NCBI GenBank assembly: GCA_946479785.1
Contig: CAMLHQ010000025.1
Span: 1 to 38,711 of the forward strand
Direction of reading: 5' to 3'
From: an uncultured Nitrospira sp.
GTDB lineage: Bacteria > Nitrospirota > Nitrospiria > Nitrospirales > Nitrospiraceae
Length of the DNA stretch: 38,711 bases
A model generated the notes under the pieces. The model ran no database searches. It worked only from the letters and a program-made list of their open reading frames with translations, and was not told the DNA's origin. The position numbers and the translations under genes were made by a program. This document shows, piece by piece, positions 5,781 through 29,251 of the stretch; within the stretch, counting starts at the first letter, position 1; each line of letters starts with the position of its first letter.

Positions 5781-5827
5781 GGATGCTCTCGTTGTTGTTC
5801 CACTTCCCCCGGCAGGTAGACTCACTC

Positions 5828-6934
5828 ATGGGTGCACGTGAATTTCATGATGGCGCGAAAGACGGTCTCGAAGCACTCGAGCCGCTGAATCCCGAAACAA
5901 TCGGTTCATTCGACGAACTGTTGGTCGCCATGCGTAAGACCGCGTTCGGCGGGCGTCGTCTGGGTGAAGCCTACGAAGTGCTGTGGGCGATGATCGAAGA
6001 TCCGGATTGTTCGGTCGTGATGACCCTCTCCGGCGCAATGACGATCGCCAAGATGGGCAAGATCATCAGCACCATGATCGACCGCGGCATGGTGCAGTGC
6101 GTGGTGTCGACCGGGGCGCTGATTGCCCACGGCCTCACCGAATCCATCGGCAAGACCCACTATCGGGCTCCTAGGTCGATGAGTGACGAGGAACTCTTTA
6201 AGAAAGGCTACAACCGGGTCTATGACACGCTCGAGATGGAGGCCAATCTCAATTACGTCGAGCATGTCGTCGGACAGACGATGAAACGGATCAGTCCCGA
6301 TCAGGCCCTTTCATCTGAAATCCTCACCCGCGAACTGGGGAGGACGCTGGCGGAAGAATTTCATGGCGACGGGATTCTGAAGAGCGCCTATCTGAAAAAG
6401 GTCCCGGTGTACATCCCTGCGTTTACCGATTCCGAGATGGGCCTAGATGTTGGAACATGGGCGATGGGGCGGGTGGTGGATCAAGCGCGTGCTCAAACCA
6501 AAGGCGGGAGCGATCTCGACATTCTTCGCACGATCAATAAGTCGTATCCGTTGTTTAATCCCTATCAGGATCTCAACAGCTATACCACCCACATCACGTC
6601 AGCAAAGCGCCTCGGCATCTTCACCATCGGCGGCGGGGTCCCTCGCAACTGGTCGCAACAAGTCGGCCCCTATATCGAGATCAGCAACATGCGACTCGGA
6701 CTTGGGGTGAAGCCTCCGCGGTTTCAGTATGGGGTGCGCATTTGCCCGGAACCGGATTATTGGGGTGGCTTGAGTGGCTGCACCTATCAGGAAGGCATTT
6801 CGTGGGGAAAGTTCGTGCCACCTGAAGAAGGCGGACGCTTTGCCGAAGTATTGAGCGATGCCACGGTCGTGTGGCCGCTGCTCATGGCCGGATTGCTTGA
6901 ACGCATGAAGGCCAAGCGCGCCACGCGATCATGA
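5828..6934 (+). CDS. Deoxyhypusine synthase family protein, probable homospermidine synthase
   Basis: A 368-residue member of the deoxyhypusine synthase (DHS) family, the same length as human DHS (369). The catalytic region is intact: E-G-I-S-W-G-K at 322-328, where Lys328 aligns with the Schiff-base Lys329 of human DHS. The NAD-binding F-T-I-G-G-G-V and the V-W-P-L-L helix near the C-terminus are also present. In eukaryotes and archaea DHS modifies eIF5A/aIF5A. Bacteria lack that substrate, and bacterial relatives have been linked to homospermidine synthesis from putrescine. The downstream arginine decarboxylase and agmatinase genes, which would make putrescine, support that role by inference. 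I chose ATG 5828 over 5783 because the promoter at 5751-5780 would start transcription after 5783. The gene overlaps the next by 4 nt (ATGA). Confidence 0.9.
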   Translation: MGAREFHDGAKDGLEALEPLNPETIGSFDELLVAMRKTAFGGRRLGEAYEVLWAMIEDPDCSVVMTLSGAMTIAKMGKIISTMIDRGMVQCVVSTGALIAHGLTESIGKTHYRAPRSMSDEELFKKGYNRVYDTLEMEANLNYVEHVVGQTMKRISPDQALSSEILTRELGRTLAEEFHGDGILKSAYLKKVPVYIPAFTDSEMGLDVGTWAMGRVVDQARAQTKGGSDLDILRTINKSYPLFNPYQDLNSYTTHITSAKRLGIFTIGGGVPRNWSQQVGPYIEISNMRLGLGVKPPRFQYGVRICPEPDYWGGLSGCTYQEGISWGKFVPPEEGGRFAEVLSDATVVWPLLMAGLLERMKAKRATRS

Positions 6935-9529: not shown

Positions 9530-10099
9530 ATGGTACCTACGCATATGTTTCTGACCAGAGGAGTCGGCGTACACCGGGAGAAGCTGGCCTCCTTCGAGCA
9601 AGCGCTGCGCAGCGCCGGTGTCGCTTACTGTAACCTCGTCAGTGTCTCGTCGATCTTACCTCCCAATTGCAAAATCATTCCACGAAAGCGCGGGGAGACT
9701 TTGTTGAACCCGGGCGAGATCACGCACTGCGTGATGGCGCGTTCGGAAACCAACGAGCGGAACCGATTGATTTCCGCTTCCATCGGCTTGGCGATTCCGA
9801 CGGATCGCCGCACGTACGGGTATCTTTCGGAACATCACGCCCACGGCGAAACTGACGAAGAGACCGGCGAATACACAGAAGATCTTGCCGCGCAGATGTT
9901 GGCGACGACCTTGGGCGTGGAATTCGATCCGAACATCGCCTGGAAAGAACGAGAACAAGTGTTCAAGATGGGCGGTAAAATCGTGCGCACACTGAATATT
10001 ACACAGTCGGCGATTGGAAAGCCCGGACGGTGGACGACTGTCGTCGCATTGGCAGTGTTCATTCCTCTAGAGAATCTACCGAAACGGAGCCGCCGCTAA
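9530..10099 (+). CDS. pdaD: Pyruvoyl-dependent arginine decarboxylase
   Basis: A 189-residue proenzyme of the PvlArgDC family. It should cleave itself between Ser40 and Ser41 in V-S-V-S-S-I-L-P-P, converting Ser41 to the pyruvoyl cofactor. This matches the V-S-S-I-x-P-P site of the archaeal enzyme. Other family landmarks are G-E-x-x-x-C-V-M-A-R and G-Y-L-S-E-H-H-A. It decarboxylates arginine to agmatine and needs no PLP. The agmatinase gene follows after 60 nt, completing arginine to putrescine. A GGGAGAAG ribosome-binding site precedes the ATG. This archaeal-type enzyme has a patchy bacterial distribution. Confidence 0.93.
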
Positions 10100-10159
10100 A
10101 CACGCCTGACAGAAGTGGGCCGCGCAGTGGCCCATCCCGCAGCCTGTGAGTACATACCC

Positions 10160-11092
10160 ATGACGCTTCCCGCCGGATGGGAAGGCTATCAGCATAACTT
10201 CCTGGGGCTTGAAGAACCCTGGTGTCACCCGGATCAAGCGGGTGTTTACGTCCTTCCCGCACCCTACGAACATACCTCGAGTTATGTGCCTGGCTCGGAT
10301 CAAGGACCCTCCGCCATCATCGAGGCCTCGCATCAGGTCGAGTGTTATGACGAGATGCTTCGCTGCGAACCCTTTCGCGATTGGGGTGGAATTGCGACGG
10401 TCACCCCGCTCGATCTCAGGGGGAAGGTCGACCGAGAGGCTGTGGAAGCAATCGAGGGTTTTGTACGCCCTCATGTCGGAGCCGGTCGATTCATCGTCAC
10501 GCTGACCGGCGAGCACACGGGTGCCTTGGGAGCCATCAGGGCCCATGCGAAACGTTATCCTAATCTGAACGTCGTCCAGATTGATGCGCACGGCGATCTG
10601 CGCCATGCCTACCAAGACAATCCTTACAGCCATGCGAGTGTCATGGCGCGTGTCGTCGACGACGGCTTGCCGTTGGTTCAGGTCGGTATCAGGTCGATCT
10701 GTCCGGAAGAAATCGAACGAATTACAAGCAGCGATCGCATTTCCACGTTCTTTGCCGCTCAGCTTTTGGATCCTTCCGGTCCTTATGAGGGGAAGTCCCC
10801 GCGTTGGATTCCCGATGTCGTCAAGGCCTGCCGCGGCCCGGTCTATTTAACGTTCGATTGCGACGGCCTCGATGCCTCATTGGTTCCTGCTCTGGGCACG
10901 CCGGAGCCCGGTGGGCTCGGCTGGTACGATACGCTGAATCTCATCACAGCGCTCGCCGATGGGCCCGGCATTCTCGGGATGGACGTCAGTGAGATTGCCC
11001 CGATCGAAGGATTCGTGGCTCCGCAGTTTTGCATTGCGCGTTTGATCTACCGAATTCTCGGCCGTGTTCGGGCTGGCCGCCGCGTTCACTGA
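10160..11092 (+). CDS. speB: Agmatinase / ureohydrolase
   Basis: A ureohydrolase of about 310 residues that should hydrolyse agmatine to putrescine and urea. Metal-binding motifs are present: G-E-H-T-G-A (GGDH equivalent), I-D-A-H-G-D-L-R, S-H-A-S-V, and F-D-C-D-G-L-D-A-S followed by G-T-P-E-P-G-G-L. These are the Mn2+ ligands of arginase/agmatinase enzymes. A GTG start at 10115 is possible and would add 15 residues; ATG 10160 gives the usual N-terminus (M-T-L-P-A-G-W-E-G). Close linkage to pdaD favours agmatine as substrate over arginine or guanidinobutyrate, though sequence alone cannot decide. Confidence 0.9.
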   Translation: MTLPAGWEGYQHNFLGLEEPWCHPDQAGVYVLPAPYEHTSSYVPGSDQGPSAIIEASHQVECYDEMLRCEPFRDWGGIATVTPLDLRGKVDREAVEAIEGFVRPHVGAGRFIVTLTGEHTGALGAIRAHAKRYPNLNVVQIDAHGDLRHAYQDNPYSHASVMARVVDDGLPLVQVGIRSICPEEIERITSSDRISTFFAAQLLDPSGPYEGKSPRWIPDVVKACRGPVYLTFDCDGLDASLVPALGTPEPGGLGWYDTLNLITALADGPGILGMDVSEIAPIEGFVAPQFCIARLIYRILGRVRAGRRVH

Positions 11093-24304: not shown

Positions 24305-25078
24305 TTATGTGCGATCGGAGGAGGGCGGGATTGCCTGTAATGCCCAGGCTTTGAGGCGGGCAAGATCGGCATTCGTGAGATCGGCGAACTGGATTTCGAT
24401 AGCAACCTTCTTCTGCCCGTGGTGAGGGGGCTTTCCTGAGGATGGAGAGTCGGACGTCATAACTTTTCCATGAATGGTTAACGGTGTGTTCTGTCCCGGT
24501 AAAGAAAAGGCCAGCACCACGCGTGTCTTGGTGTTCAACTTTGAAGCTGATTCGATGCGGGCGCCCGCATGGCTGAGCTGCACGATCGTCGCATTATATG
24601 CCTGCCGATGATTGAGATCTTCGCCGATGACGCTCACGACTGCTGGGATGTTCGTCTGGCGTCGGGGAGGTGCGAGCATCAGGTCTTGCGCGCTCAATAT
24701 GCCGACCGGCTGGTTCTGCTTCGTGACAATCAGAAGAGACGCGCCGGTCGCCACCATCATCGTGGAGGCCTCTTCAAGGGCTTCGTCGTACTCGATGAAC
24801 TGCACGGGGCGCGTCATGATGCTGCGCACCTCGATGTCGTGGGGTTCCAACCCCTGGGCGACGACTTTTTTCACGATGTCGGTCGGTGTCATGAGCCCGA
24901 ACACAGTCTCGGTCTCTTTCACGAGCAGGCACGGTGCATGTTCCCGCTCAAGAAGCAGCGCGGCTTCGCTGACAGACACATCGCCCGGAATCTGTACGAC
25001 CCCTGGAGTCATCATATGGGCTACCACAGTTGGTACGAGATGAAAGGCCTGTGGGGGTGGTTCGTTTGGACCGGGCAT
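24305..25078 (-). CDS. Tandem CBS domain protein with degenerate PilZ domain
   Basis: About 257 residues: two CBS repeats (from V-A-H-M-M-T-P and R-S-I-M-T-R-P) followed by a PilZ-like beta-barrel. CBS pairs bind adenine nucleotides. The PilZ part lacks the c-di-GMP motifs: the RxxxR region reads R-R-Q-T-N-I-P and DxSxxG reads Q-L-S-H-A-G, so binding is doubtful. It may sense nucleotides and relay to a partner. I start at ATG 25078 because GGAGAGGGG lies 7 nt upstream; ATG 25108 is possible. A TTG at 25198 is upstream of the predicted promoter and unlikely. Confidence 0.8.
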   Translation of the reverse strand: MPGPNEPPPQAFHLVPTVVAHMMTPGVVQIPGDVSVSEAALLLEREHAPCLLVKETETVFGLMTPTDIVKKVVAQGLEPHDIEVRSIMTRPVQFIEYDEALEEASTMMVATGASLLIVTKQNQPVGILSAQDLMLAPPRRQTNIPAVVSVIGEDLNHRQAYNATIVQLSHAGARIESASKLNTKTRVVLAFSLPGQNTPLTIHGKVMTSDSPSSGKPPHHGQKKVAIEIQFADLTNADLARLKAWALQAIPPSSDRT

Positions 25079-25085
25079 CGGTGGA

Positions 25086-25094
25086 CCCCTCTCC
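25086..25094 (-). promoter_or_regulatory. Ribosome-binding site favouring the CBS-PilZ start at 25078
   Basis: GGAGAGGGG on the minus strand ends 7 nt before ATG 25078. No comparable site precedes ATG 25108. Confidence 0.55.
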
Positions 25095-25148
25095 GATTCG
25101 TGCCTCATTGACGACTCGTGAGGGGCCGGCCCCCTGCGGCGTAAGCCA

Positions 25149-25157
25149 AGTATAGCA
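25149..25157 (-). promoter_or_regulatory. Extended -10 element for the CBS-PilZ gene
   Basis: TGCTATACT on the minus strand matches an extended -10 box (TGn plus TATACT). No good -35 box is at 17 bp, as is common for extended -10 promoters. Start near 25142. Confidence 0.45.
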
Positions 25158-25188
25158 GACAGGGTCTCTTCCCCCTCATCGGCATGTT

Positions 25189-25205
25189 CCCTTGTCAAAC
25201 AAGGG
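25189..25205. promoter_or_regulatory. Operator-like 17-bp dyad in the divergent promoter region
   Basis: CCCTTGT-CAA-ACAAGGG is a perfect inverted repeat with 7-bp arms. It overlaps the proposed -35 box (25192-25197) of the DUF692-family gene and lies about 40 bp upstream of the opposing -10 element, a typical place for a repressor site. Confidence 0.5.
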
Positions 25206-25255: not shown

Positions 25256-26740
25256 GTGGGAAGTCTCAGCTCGATCGAACAGAGGTTCCAGAGTCGCGTG
25301 GAGGACATTCCCAGGCTCGGCCTGGGTTTGTCCGTCGACGTCTATTCGCCGGACCTGTTCGAGTTGATGGACCGCTTTCTGAGCCAAGAGCGTCGACCAT
25401 CCTATCTCGAAATCTTTCGGGCAACTGCGACGGCTCTCCAGGCGGTGCGCCTGCACCTCCCCGCCATTCCATTGGCCTATCATGGCGAGGGGCTGTGGAT
25501 TACCCAACCGGATTTCACTGCCCACGCCTTTGTGGAGAAGGAACTCGACGATGTCGCCTCACAACTGGCCATTCTCAAAAGTCCGTGGCTCAACCATGAA
25601 TGTGCCACCAAACAGATGGCAGGCTACTCGTTCGGCACGTATCTCCCACCTTTGTATACCGCCGAGAGCGCCAGAGTCGTCGCCGACAACATCGCCTCGG
25701 TGCAAGAGAGGATGGATCGGGGATCCCGATCAGGAGAAGCATTCGGACCATTGTTCCTCTTGGAGATGCCGCCGCTCACCTATTTTATGGCCGGGACCAT
25801 GTCAGTCCCGCAGTACTTTCGGCTCGTGACCGATCTGGTTCCCTGTGGACTCGTCCTCGACATCGGGCATCTCTGGACCGTCTACCGCTACACGGCCGCC
25901 AGACGGCAGTCGTCGCTTGAGCAGTTCGTCCGGCAGTTCCTAGACGAATTTCCCATGGAGCGGGTCATTGAAGTCCATGTCGCGGGGTTGGCGCAACATG
26001 AAGCGGCAGTCCCACGCCGGTCGCCGGACGCAGACCTTGAATGGATCGATGCGCACGCCGCGCCAATTCAGCTGGTGTCCTGGACGATGCTGGAACAGGT
26101 GTTGGCCCATCCTCGGCTGGTCAATCTTCGCGGGGTGGCGCTGGAAGTCGACACGAAACCGATCGACCGTATCCTCGAAGAGTTCCACGAGGCCAGCCTG
26201 CGCTTTGCCCCGATGATTCGACACAGATTGGCAAATGGCTCGACATCCATCGATTCGGTCCCGAAGCGGGCGGAACCATGTCCTGAAGAGCACCTTCTAA
26301 GCGAGGTTCATCGGCAACGATTGCAAGCTGACTATGCCCGCTATGCGCAGATCATCTCGGGGCAACGACCGCCGACCGGTCCGGAATGGCAAGAGGTGGC
26401 GGGAGATCCTGCCGGTCTCGACCGGTATATTCACAACTATATGCCGCACGAGATTCTTTACTGGGGCGGAGCTATCACCGAGATGTTTCCTGAAACTTGC
26501 CGCGTGATAAGTGAGAAAGGGGTGTCGCTTGAGGAGTTCGTGCCCTGGTGGTTCCAGATAGCCCGCCCGGTCGATCGATCATACGATTTTTTCCTCCTCA
26601 AGATTGACCGCGTGCTGGAATTTGTCGCAGAACGAGCACCCGCAGTTCTCAAACAGGCCGAACGAGAAGCGGACGCGTTACGCACAGCCTATGCGGACGC
26701 CAACGATGTGGTGCGACCGATCATGGAGCCGACCAGATGA
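25256..26740 (+). CDS. Divergent DUF692 (MNIO-type) protein with C-terminal DUF2063-like domain
   Basis: About 494 residues. Residues 20-325 read as a DUF692 TIM barrel, the family of multinuclear iron oxidases (MbnB, TglH, HvfB). Candidate metal ligands occur in family order: H76 (Y-H-G-E-G-L), H114-E115 (N-H-E), E170 (L-L-E-M-P), D202 and H205 (D-I-G-H), H241 (E-V-H-V-A-G), D265/H267 (D-A-H-A-A-P) and E297. The D-I-G-H replaces the usual D-x-N-N, so it is a divergent member. Residues about 345-470 (Y-I-H-N-Y-M-P-H-E-I-L-Y-W, then F-P-E-T, then S-L-E-E-F-V) resemble DUF2063/HvfC, the usual separate partner. GTG 25256 is chosen for the AGAGGT ribosome-binding site; the in-frame start at 25184 precedes the proposed promoter. 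It overlaps dus by 4 nt. No precursor peptide is seen nearby. Confidence 0.75.
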   Translation: MGSLSSIEQRFQSRVEDIPRLGLGLSVDVYSPDLFELMDRFLSQERRPSYLEIFRATATALQAVRLHLPAIPLAYHGEGLWITQPDFTAHAFVEKELDDVASQLAILKSPWLNHECATKQMAGYSFGTYLPPLYTAESARVVADNIASVQERMDRGSRSGEAFGPLFLLEMPPLTYFMAGTMSVPQYFRLVTDLVPCGLVLDIGHLWTVYRYTAARRQSSLEQFVRQFLDEFPMERVIEVHVAGLAQHEAAVPRRSPDADLEWIDAHAAPIQLVSWTMLEQVLAHPRLVNLRGVALEVDTKPIDRILEEFHEASLRFAPMIRHRLANGSTSIDSVPKRAEPCPEEHLLSEVHRQRLQADYARYAQIISGQRPPTGPEWQEVAGDPAGLDRYIHNYMPHEILYWGGAITEMFPETCRVISEKGVSLEEFVPWWFQIARPVDRSYDFFLLKIDRVLEFVAERAPAVLKQAEREADALRTAYADANDVVRPIMEPTR

Positions 26741-27918
26741 ATTTTTGGTCGACCCTTCCCACGCCGATCATCGGGCTGTCTCCCATGGATGGCGTGACGG
26801 ACGCCACCTTTCGCCGCATCGTCGCCTGGCAGGGGAAACCGGACGTCACCTTTACCGAGTTTACGCACGTCCATGACGTGTGCCGCGGTCCTGAGTTTCT
26901 CTTGGACTCCCTCCATTATCACGAGGCCGAACGGCCGATCGTGGCTCAACTCTACGGGAAAGATCCGGCGCTGTTTTATCAAGCAGCGCATGCCGTCTGC
27001 GAGTTGGGATTCGACGGGTTGGATATCAATATGGGCTGTCCCTCTCGAAACGTGGCATCGTCGGGCTCCGGAGCCGGTCTGATCAAAACGCCGGACCTGG
27101 CCCATGCCATTATGCGTGCGGCACGGCAAGGTATTGCCGATTGGACAGCCGGCCAAACATTGGAAGCAGCCGGTCTCAAACCAGTAAGGGCTGACGCGAT
27201 CCGCAGATTGAACGAGCATCGAGGGGCGGCTGCTCTGTCCGTTCGAAAGCCCATTCCGCTCTCTGTGAAAACTCGACTCGGCTACGACGAAGTGATCGTG
27301 GAACGCTGGATCGAACATCTGTTGATCGAATCTCCGAGAGTGATTTCACTGCATGGAAGAACTTTGCAGCAGATGTATCGAGGGGAGGCTGATTGGTCGG
27401 CGATCGCCCGTGCAGCTGAGATTGTCCGTGGCAGCGGGACGATGTTGTTCGGCAACGGCGACGTCCAGAGTCTGTCTGAAGTTGTCCGTCGTGTGCACGA
27501 GACTGGCGTCGACGGCGTCCTCGTGGGTCGCGCGGCATTGGGGGCACCTTGGTTTTTCCGAGGCAAGGAAGAAGCCCGACAATGTGCTCGGTCGGCAAGA
27601 AGTGCCGAAACAGAGCACTGGATGCCGTCGCTGTCAGTCAGGTTTGAGATCCTTCTCGAGCATGCCAAACAATTTGAAGCGAACTGGGGCCGAGAGCAGT
27701 TCAGACGCATGCGCAAACATCTCGGCTGGTATTGCAAAGGTTTCCCTCATGCCGCAGCGCTCAGGGCGAGGATGTTCAGCGTATCCTGCGTCGGTGACGT
27801 AGAAGCTGCCCTGGCAGAATTCCAAACTCACCAGACCTTCGAGACGCACCAGAATGCGGCGGCCTTTGCGCCTGATGATGTCGACGCAATGACTCCGCTG
27901 GCATCACGATGCGGCTAG
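26737..27918 (+). CDS. dus: tRNA-dihydrouridine synthase (Dus family)
   Basis: A 393-residue flavoenzyme that reduces uridines in tRNA. The start S-P-M-D-G-V-T-D and the motif D-I-N-M-G-C-P-S with probable catalytic Cys101 are diagnostic. V-K-T-R-L-G-Y-D and the C-terminal R-K-H-L-G-W-Y-C-K-G are DusB-like. Compared with E. coli DusB (about 321 residues) it carries an insert of roughly 40 residues near 130-170 (R-Q-G-I-A-D-W onward). Which U is modified cannot be told. It overlaps the DUF692-family gene by 4 nt and maf by 10 nt, indicating one operon. Confidence 0.92.
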   Translation: MNFWSTLPTPIIGLSPMDGVTDATFRRIVAWQGKPDVTFTEFTHVHDVCRGPEFLLDSLHYHEAERPIVAQLYGKDPALFYQAAHAVCELGFDGLDINMGCPSRNVASSGSGAGLIKTPDLAHAIMRAARQGIADWTAGQTLEAAGLKPVRADAIRRLNEHRGAAALSVRKPIPLSVKTRLGYDEVIVERWIEHLLIESPRVISLHGRTLQQMYRGEADWSAIARAAEIVRGSGTMLFGNGDVQSLSEVVRRVHETGVDGVLVGRAALGAPWFFRGKEEARQCARSARSAETEHWMPSLSVRFEILLEHAKQFEANWGREQFRRMRKHLGWYCKGFPHAAALRARMFSVSCVGDVEAALAEFQTHQTFETHQNAAAFAPDDVDAMTPLASRCG

Positions 27919-28535
27919 TGTTGGCTTCGACGTCGCCGCGTCGTCGAGAACTTCTCTCGCTCCTCGGCATTCCTTTTGAAGTCCGGAATCCGATATGTGA
28001 AGAACGTCTCGTTCCTGGCCGATCCGCTGATGATCTCGCCGCCCATTTTGCCCAGAGCAAAGCCGATTCTGTGGCGCAACAAGATCCGGACGCCCTTGTG
28101 CTGGCCAGCGACACCCTGATTCAATTGGATGGGGAAGTGTTGGGAAAACCCGGCGATGTGGCCGAGGCCCGGGCCATGCTTCGGCAAATGGCCGGCCGTG
28201 AGCATCGCGTCCAGACCGCCGTGTCGCTGGCCTGCCTTGCGCGTCGGATCGAAATCACCCAAGTCTCAGTTGCCTGCGTGCGGATGAAGTCATTCGATGC
28301 CGAAGCGCATGAGCGCTATCTGGCGACCCTCGACAGTCTTGGAAAGGCCGGAGCCTATTCCATACAAGGTCCAGGCGCCGAATTGGTCGAACGGCTCGAG
28401 GGAGACTTTACGACGGTCGTGGGCTTCCCTCTCCGCCTCGTGGTCAGACTGTTGGCGCAGGCCGGGGTGACGGTTCCCGTCGATGTCGAGGCGCTGTATG
28501 TGCTGAAGCCATACGGGAACTGGGCCCGCTTCTGA
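27909..28535 (+). CDS. maf: Maf family nucleotide pyrophosphatase
   Basis: A 208-residue Maf/YhdE-type protein that hydrolyses non-canonical or bulk NTPs (dTTP/UTP or modified nucleotides) to NMP and pyrophosphate. The N-terminal L-A-S-T-S-P-R-R-R-E-L-L, the middle A-S-D-T-L and G-K-P motifs and G-K-A-G-A-Y-S-I-Q-G near residue 140 are all intact. Length is normal. The first 10 bases overlap dus. YhdE-like or YceF-like specificity is not decided. Confidence 0.93.
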   Translation: MRLVLASTSPRRRELLSLLGIPFEVRNPICEERLVPGRSADDLAAHFAQSKADSVAQQDPDALVLASDTLIQLDGEVLGKPGDVAEARAMLRQMAGREHRVQTAVSLACLARRIEITQVSVACVRMKSFDAEAHERYLATLDSLGKAGAYSIQGPGAELVERLEGDFTTVVGFPLRLVVRLLAQAGVTVPVDVEALYVLKPYGNWARF

Positions 28536-28597: not shown

Positions 28598-29251
28598 ATG
28601 GTAGCTCAAGAAAAGAGAGGAATAGGTGGTGTGCTAGGCTTGGTCGGAGTCTGTGCCATGGGGATCATTCCAGCGTTCGCGATCGATGTGAAGTTATCCA
28701 TGGAAGAGGCACAGAAGGCCCTTGAAGCCGGCCGTGCGCCGATGGACAAGGCCAATAGTCCTGAAGAGGTGAAGAAGGTCCTCCAGCAAGCCTCACTGGC
28801 CACGCGCGTGGGCGCCGATCCCGAAAAAGATTCCTGCGGGGCCAGCGCGATCCTAAGAACCAAGCGCTATAGACTGGAGGCCTTCGGCCGGCAGGAAGCC
28901 TCGGAGTCCAAGAAACGCAAGACAGACATCCGCATGCCGGACGAGTTCATCAAGAAGGTCGTCGATATGCCGAATATGGAAGTCGAGGTACAACTCTGCG
29001 GCGACGACGAATACTTTGCCGAGGGTGCGGTGATCGAGATGCAGCAGGGCAGTAAGAAAGTGAAAGCCATCGACGTTGGAAAGGCGGAACGTGGGCGCAA
29101 GAACGAAGGCAGCGGGCCCGCGTACCGGTCCCGATTTACCGCAGTCTTCGCCTATGAGAGTTTCGATCCCAATGCTGCATCGGTGTTTGTCATTAATCAG
29201 CAAGACGGGAAGGAAGTCCGTATCCCTGCTGATTTCTCGAAGGTGAAATAG
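28598..29251 (+). CDS. Uncharacterised exported protein
   Basis: A 217-residue protein with an N-terminal hydrophobic segment (residues 10-26) ending in P-A-F-A, a plausible signal peptidase site. The mature part starts with a charged helical region (K-L-S-M-E-E-A-Q-K-A-L-E-A-G-R) and continues as a mixed domain with two cysteines (D-S-C-G-A-S and Q-L-C-G-D-D) that could form a disulfide. I recognise no family. It has its own promoter and a strong ribosome-binding site, so it is very likely expressed, and it precedes two other envelope genes. Confidence 0.75.
   Translation: MVAQEKRGIGGVLGLVGVCAMGIIPAFAIDVKLSMEEAQKALEAGRAPMDKANSPEEVKKVLQQASLATRVGADPEKDSCGASAILRTKRYRLEAFGRQEASESKKRKTDIRMPDEFIKKVVDMPNMEVEVQLCGDDEYFAEGAVIEMQQGSKKVKAIDVGKAERGRKNEGSGPAYRSRFTAVFAYESFDPNAASVFVINQQDGKEVRIPADFSKVK

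Follow-up and report, generated by a model that had tools for sequence, protein, structure and literature searches.

A putative MNIO-family metallo-oxidase of Nitrospira and its relatives with an apparently fused partner domain and a probably re-liganded metal site

In this study, we analyzed a 38,711-nucleotide stretch of DNA from an uncultured Nitrospira sp. (GenBank assembly GCA_946479785.1, contig CAMLHQ010000025.1, positions 1 to 38,711 of the forward strand; here named the window) and focused on an open reading frame (ORF) on its plus strand. The gene (25256 to 26740, stop codon included) begins with GTG and encodes 494 amino acids; an alternative in-frame ATG at 25184 would extend the protein to 518. 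Its product combines an MNIO (DUF692) barrel, in which metal-binding positions and the base aspartate of MbnB are conserved and a histidine occupies the place of the Fe3 asparagine, with a separate helical domain at the C terminus. We consider it probable that the protein is a divergent metallo-oxidase of the MNIO family with a partner domain fused at its C terminus. The enzyme, with its apparent partner fusion and probable change of metal ligands, is conserved among Nitrospira and related bacteria. A literature search, limited in reach, found no paper joining DUF692 or MNIOs with Nitrospira.

An initial annotation, made from the sequence without database searches, had assigned the N-terminal part to DUF692 and proposed searches with the DUF692 and DUF2063 profiles, of which the former confirmed the assignment. 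PF05114 (MbnB/TglH/ChrH, formerly DUF692) matches residues 57 to 313 (E value of 3.8e-15; 56.3 bits versus a cutoff of 25) and is the sole Pfam family matched by the protein. Residues 1 to 326 (25256 to 26233) are predicted to fold as a TIM barrel, which in structural comparisons is closest to MbnB, TglH, and 3BWW; MNIOs rank clearly above other barrels as fold matches, including endonuclease IV and sugar isomerases, which have the same fold. The metal-binding segments follow each other in the family order. With this profile match and predicted fold, the protein is a member of the DUF692/MNIO family and would be expected to bind two or three irons and to oxidize a substrate with O2. Matches to the NCBIfam equivalogs BufB, ApyH, and HvfB fell far below their own cutoffs, and a sequence search of the PDB with the single protein gave no match.

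In TglH, Fe1 and Fe2 are bound by His71, His107, Glu151, Asp184, His216, and Glu258 and Fe3 by Asp184, Asn187, Asp229, and His231 (PMC10880893), and VcMbnB has the corresponding ligand set plus Asp240 as general base (PMC8888699). By alignment, seven of the nine TglH ligand positions are identical in the Nitrospira protein, namely, His76 (25481 to 25483; TglH His71, Fe1), the bridging Glu170 (25763 to 25765; Glu151), the bridging Asp202 (Asp184), His241 (25976 to 25978; His216), Asp265 and His267 of a D-A-H segment (26048 to 26056; Asp229 and His231, Fe3), and Glu297 of an E-V-D segment (26144 to 26152; TglH Glu258, VcMbnB Glu238). Asp299, the last residue of the latter segment, aligns with the base Asp240 of VcMbnB and is invariant among the aligned relatives, as are His76 and Glu170.

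The other two positions differ from characterized MNIOs. At the first, the segment D202-I-G-H205 (25859 to 25870) carries a histidine three residues past the bridging aspartate, aligned with TglH Asn187 and VcMbnB Asn168, where 3BWW reads DVNN, TglH DLHN, and MbnB DISN. The match was made via these two asparagines, both at that spacing, and not via HvfB Asn175; by our count, the numbering of 3BWW and HvfB is one apart at D-x-H. The initial annotation had noticed D-I-G-H in place of D-x-N-N, and this is no local error, since His205 is invariant in 269 aligned relatives; what has to be refined is its meaning, as a histidine replaces the Fe3 asparagine. D-x-x-H plus D-x-H is reminiscent of endonuclease IV, and the site therefore looks filled rather than lost.

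This likeness to endonuclease IV also speaks for another explanation, in which the enzyme, with histidine at site 3 and glutamate at site 1, has given up MNIO oxidation for the metal-dependent activity of a hydrolase, lyase, or isomerase, as known from other members of this barrel superfamily. The fold shared with endonuclease IV and the sugar isomerases and the lack of a precursor found nearby would fit, but MNIOs clearly outrank the other barrels, the MbnB base aspartate is invariant, and an MNIO-type partner fold is attached, which makes such a departure unlikely.

The second change, missed by the initial annotation, is the probable replacement of the second Fe1 histidine by Glu115 (25598 to 25600). 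TglH reads P-W-V-A-N-H, ending in His107 (Fe1/Fe2), and the Nitrospira protein P-W-L-N-H-E, so that an ungapped alignment puts Glu115 at this place; MbnB has His91 there. Glu115 rather than His114 is the probable ligand, favored if not proven, because Glu115 is without variation in the 269 sequences and 11 of them replace His114 by Q, L, or V. Since MAFFT and hhalign place Glu170 one position off against the bufferin MNIOs, we based the assignment on conservation and on the aromatic-x(3)-His spacing that 3BWW, TglH, MbnB, and bufferin MNIOs have in common. Both the Fe3 asparagine and the second Fe1 histidine are features of characterized members and do not define the Pfam family. The 269 sequences, mostly from Nitrospira and hence not independent, comprise 240 database proteins (the window protein itself, the only other of the 241, was already included) and 29 rows across the three lineages described below (4 lineage A loci, 9 of 11 lineage B loci, and 16 of 20 lineage C loci). 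Two canonical MNIOs were added to this cross-lineage alignment, which omits L100 and L101 (split or broken), L075, L078, L083, and L087. The alignments A1 (17 rows), A2 (44), A5 (27), and A6 (27) were hand-picked from the sequences retrieved.

Following a linker of low confidence in the predicted local distance difference test (residues 327 to 344; 26234 to 26287), residues 345 to 494 (26288 to 26737) are predicted to form an all-helical domain resembling the N-terminal domain of TglI; no strands of an RRE domain are predicted after the barrel. From the motifs Y-I-H-N-Y, F-P-E-T, and S-L-E-E-F-V, the initial annotation had proposed a DUF2063-like partner in the same chain. The motifs are present in a segment that folds as a domain of its own in the prediction, and TglI is its top PDB match in both structural comparisons, albeit weakly. 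From this structural match, which is specific though weak, the C-terminal part appears to be a partner domain fused in cis. At the sequence level, a marginal signal was obtained in a trimmed local profile comparison with DUF2063 (score of 20.8 versus at most 18.9 in 60 shuffles), with a collinear alignment.

Several searches weigh against a fused partner. Foldseek returned no match for the domain at an E value of ≤0.001, and Pfam DUF2063 (PF09836) did not match at E values up to 10, a negative limited by the HMMER filters, which discard most matches above an E value of about 0.1. Untrimmed hhalign with full alignments gave 1.8% for the C-terminal part against DUF2063, and the trimmed comparison in global mode showed no signal (7.2 versus up to 13.8 in shuffles). 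NCBIfam had no match for this part, and its profile found nothing in the PDB below an E value of 0.5. Moreover, D444, K449, and E471 are invariant in the relatives of the fusion protein and were not seen to be so among 25 DUF2063 proteins. Together with the Foldseek, Pfam, and untrimmed hhalign results, this residue pattern would suit an unrelated helical domain on an MNIO-like barrel, serving for dimerization or as a substrate dock of its own. We regard that as rather unlikely, given that an MNIO partner heads the PDB matches in both structural comparisons, that the collinear profile alignment beats all 60 shuffles, and that such partners usually accompany MNIO genes (PMC12452194). The DUF2063 crystal structure 3DEE is not among the matches listed in the structural comparisons, which carries no evidential weight. 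In one locus (L100, 5995 to 7379), the fused gene is present as two overlapping ORFs of 314 and 156 amino acids, split in the linker; the split could be genuine, with two genes in nature, or stem from a sequencing error, and a single case proves nothing.

Among the closest known systems, TglH-TglI of the 3-thiaglutamate pathway (PDB 8HI7 and 8HCI) consists of two chains with a precursor pathway of its own, and TglI has an RRE; MbnB-MbnC of methanobactin biosynthesis (PDB 7DZ9, 7FC0, and 7TCR) likewise has a separate partner, MbnC, which binds the substrate. HvfB-HvfC and the bufferin MNIOs belong to the same PF05114 family, and canonical members are also held by related Nitrospira genomes; their PME-type-1 partners carry an RRE and match the Pfam profile for DUF2063, whereas the fusion protein gave no match to that profile and no predicted RRE strands. 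PME-type-2 partners have a DUF2063-like helical domain known by structure, without the Pfam signature and often without a full RRE, but are described as proteins of their own, with genes that follow the one for the MNIO (PMC12452194). One-chain HvfBC is an engineered construct (PMC13419390). MovX and ChrH are MNIOs with an extra domain, which is a fused RRE in MovX and a domain of unknown function in ChrH, and the available text of PMC13419390 describes neither as a DUF2063-like fusion.

We further analyzed where the fused gene occurs. PF05114 matches were found in 167 of 175 genomes of the bacterial family of Nitrospira defluvii (the genome of locus L009); among the matches listed, most of these genomes have the long type and 30 have a canonical type (>340 bits), one of them (G038) with a canonical match only. 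In two canonical loci (L029 and L030), a DUF2063 gene lies alongside, with genes that by eye encode a cysteine-containing precursor-like protein and a DoxX-like protein. Among 395 Nitrospirota genomes, with at most three candidates scored per genome, the long-type profile matched 142; DUF2063 was found in 28 and both in 25, and a six-frame search thus found no DUF2063 gene in 117 of the 142. Where the matches listed have a named source, it is Nitrospira, Nitrospirota, or Petrachloros; each protein search covered 120 of about 1,200 matches, and other phyla are possible. The fused proteins fall into lineages A (Nitrospira), B (about 40% identity), and C (about 30% identity). A Leptospirillia-like query retrieved 45 proteins, of which the few with organism names come from Leptospirillia, Nitrospirae, or "Leptospirales"; these point to lineage C being Leptospirillia-like.

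Within the window, the stop codon of the fusion gene overlaps by 4 bases the start of dus (26737 to 27918, plus strand; tRNA dihydrouridine synthase family), which in turn overlaps maf (27909 to 28535, plus strand) by 10 bases. The initial annotation had observed the overlap with dus and the maf gene after it, had derived from this a possible housekeeping or RNA-linked role, and had suggested surveying the dus linkage. The survey, which considered stop-closed ORFs of at least 50 amino acids within about 6 kb, does not support the idea. In lineage A (31 loci), dus is next to the gene in all 29 loci that reach far enough and maf follows in 28; L106 ends within the place of maf, L003 and L108 end too soon, and L020 has dus in two ORFs. 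Neither gene was found in any of the 11 lineage B or 20 lineage C loci. Lineage B genes instead follow gltB-like (by eye) and gltD-like genes in 9 of 11 loci, and 16 of the 20 lineage C loci have a lipoprotein gene next, which in L072 and L080 shares 4 bases with the stop end of the MNIO gene; two of the other four loci break off at the edge of the contig, and in the last two the lipoprotein gene is located elsewhere. Other surrounding genes of the Nitrospira lineage are syntenic as well. That dus and maf tie the enzyme to housekeeping of tRNA or nucleotides, as their conserved overlap and proximity in this lineage would suggest, is thus highly improbable, and an RNA link was set aside as lineage synteny. 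What is constant across lineages is the fused protein and not any neighboring gene.

The initial annotation had seen no precursor peptide gene near the enzyme, and we found none either. The run from the fusion gene to maf is flanked by gaps of 57 and 62 bases, and no convincing candidate was present among 12 small ORFs (20 to 130 amino acids, mostly outside the listed genes, between 20 and 32 kb). Only 3 of the 12 had tblastn matches in eight compared loci (E value up to 0.05); of these, two extend across the boundaries of known genes, and the match of the third spans 11 residues.

The gene after maf (28598 to 29251, plus strand) encodes a strongly conserved protein without a Pfam match. Among L001 to L022, all 21 loci long enough to include the gene have it after maf, its two cysteines are invariant in alignment A3, and its N terminus resembles a signal peptide by eye. 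These features, and the Sec signals of most known MNIO precursors (PMC12452194), would be consistent with an exported two-cysteine substrate of the Nitrospira enzyme. Homologs occur in 139 of the 395 Nitrospirota genomes, but 20 of the 395 have the gene without a long-MNIO match and 23 of the 142 with one lack it (21 of them Leptospirillia-like), which rules out an obligate partner; the cysteines may form a plain disulfide, and synteny of the whole region gives the linkage little weight. We therefore find this substrate assignment quite doubtful. No Nitrospira candidate passed among the neighbors tested, and the gene for the substrate protein may lie in another part of the genome.

In lineage C, the substrate may be the two-cysteine lipoprotein whose gene adjoins the MNIO gene (L072, 7290 to 7691; L080, 5135 to 5536; L088, 7182 to 7703; among others). 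It is the best candidate there because it has a lipobox-like cysteine (by eye) and two further cysteines invariant in 13 sequences. The lipoprotein (alignment A8) was detected at an E value of <1e-40 in 19 of 21 lineage C genomes; the two without such a match have the MNIO gene at the end of a contig. The lipoprotein gene does not adjoin the MNIO gene in G192 and G233, and in G240 the pieces lie on separate contigs; matches in 11 other genomes are weak (E value of ≥6e-5). As a Nitrospira substrate it was rejected, and its co-occurrence with the MNIO may be plain common descent.

If the C-terminal domain acts like the N-terminal domain of TglI, it would pack on the barrel loops, complete the catalytic pocket, and set the oxidation state of the irons; HvfC is required for the mixed-valent iron state (PMC13419390). 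The pocket-completing function would thus be supplied in cis at a 1:1 ratio, and the enzyme would use two or three irons and O2 to oxidize one residue in a peptide or protein, most likely a cysteine. Because no RRE was seen, the usual mode of leader recognition is improbable; the enzyme could recognize its substrate directly, or leader binding could be supplied elsewhere. ChrH-like MNIOs recognize substrates by a C-terminal motif, and their targets include lipoproteins and proteins of >30 kDa (PMC12636315). We tentatively propose, as a possibility short of our expectation, a self-contained MNIO of Nitrospira and Leptospirillia-like bacteria with a built-in partner, no RRE or leader, and a re-liganded site that oxidizes cysteines of exported proteins or lipoproteins and not of ribosomally synthesized and posttranslationally modified peptide precursors. 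Site 1 would then be carboxylate rich and site 3 histidine rich, and the reactive di-iron pair might occupy sites 2 and 3 rather than sites 1 and 2. A natural one-chain MNIO-partner protein would, if real, provide a 1:1 system and, having no RRE, would set completion of the pocket apart from binding of a leader. With asparagine naturally replaced by histidine, and histidine probably by glutamate, it would also serve to test which irons carry the reaction. Its wide occurrence in the Nitrospira family, with no precursor in view, may point to a conserved modification of proteins that searches for precursor genes would miss.

Upstream of the fusion gene lies a divergent gene for a CBS-PilZ protein (24305 to 25198, minus strand), which adjoins it in most Nitrospira loci. 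Promoter-like matches on the plus strand were found at 25192 and 28536, each with a score of 9/12. A terminator scan gave five terminator-like sites, all on the minus strand (5.2 expected), and none on the plus strand. Three further plus-strand genes (5783 to 6934, 9530 to 10099, and 10115 to 11092) encode what we take by eye to be a deoxyhypusine synthase-like protein, a pyruvoyl arginine decarboxylase, and an agmatinase, possibly a polyamine set.
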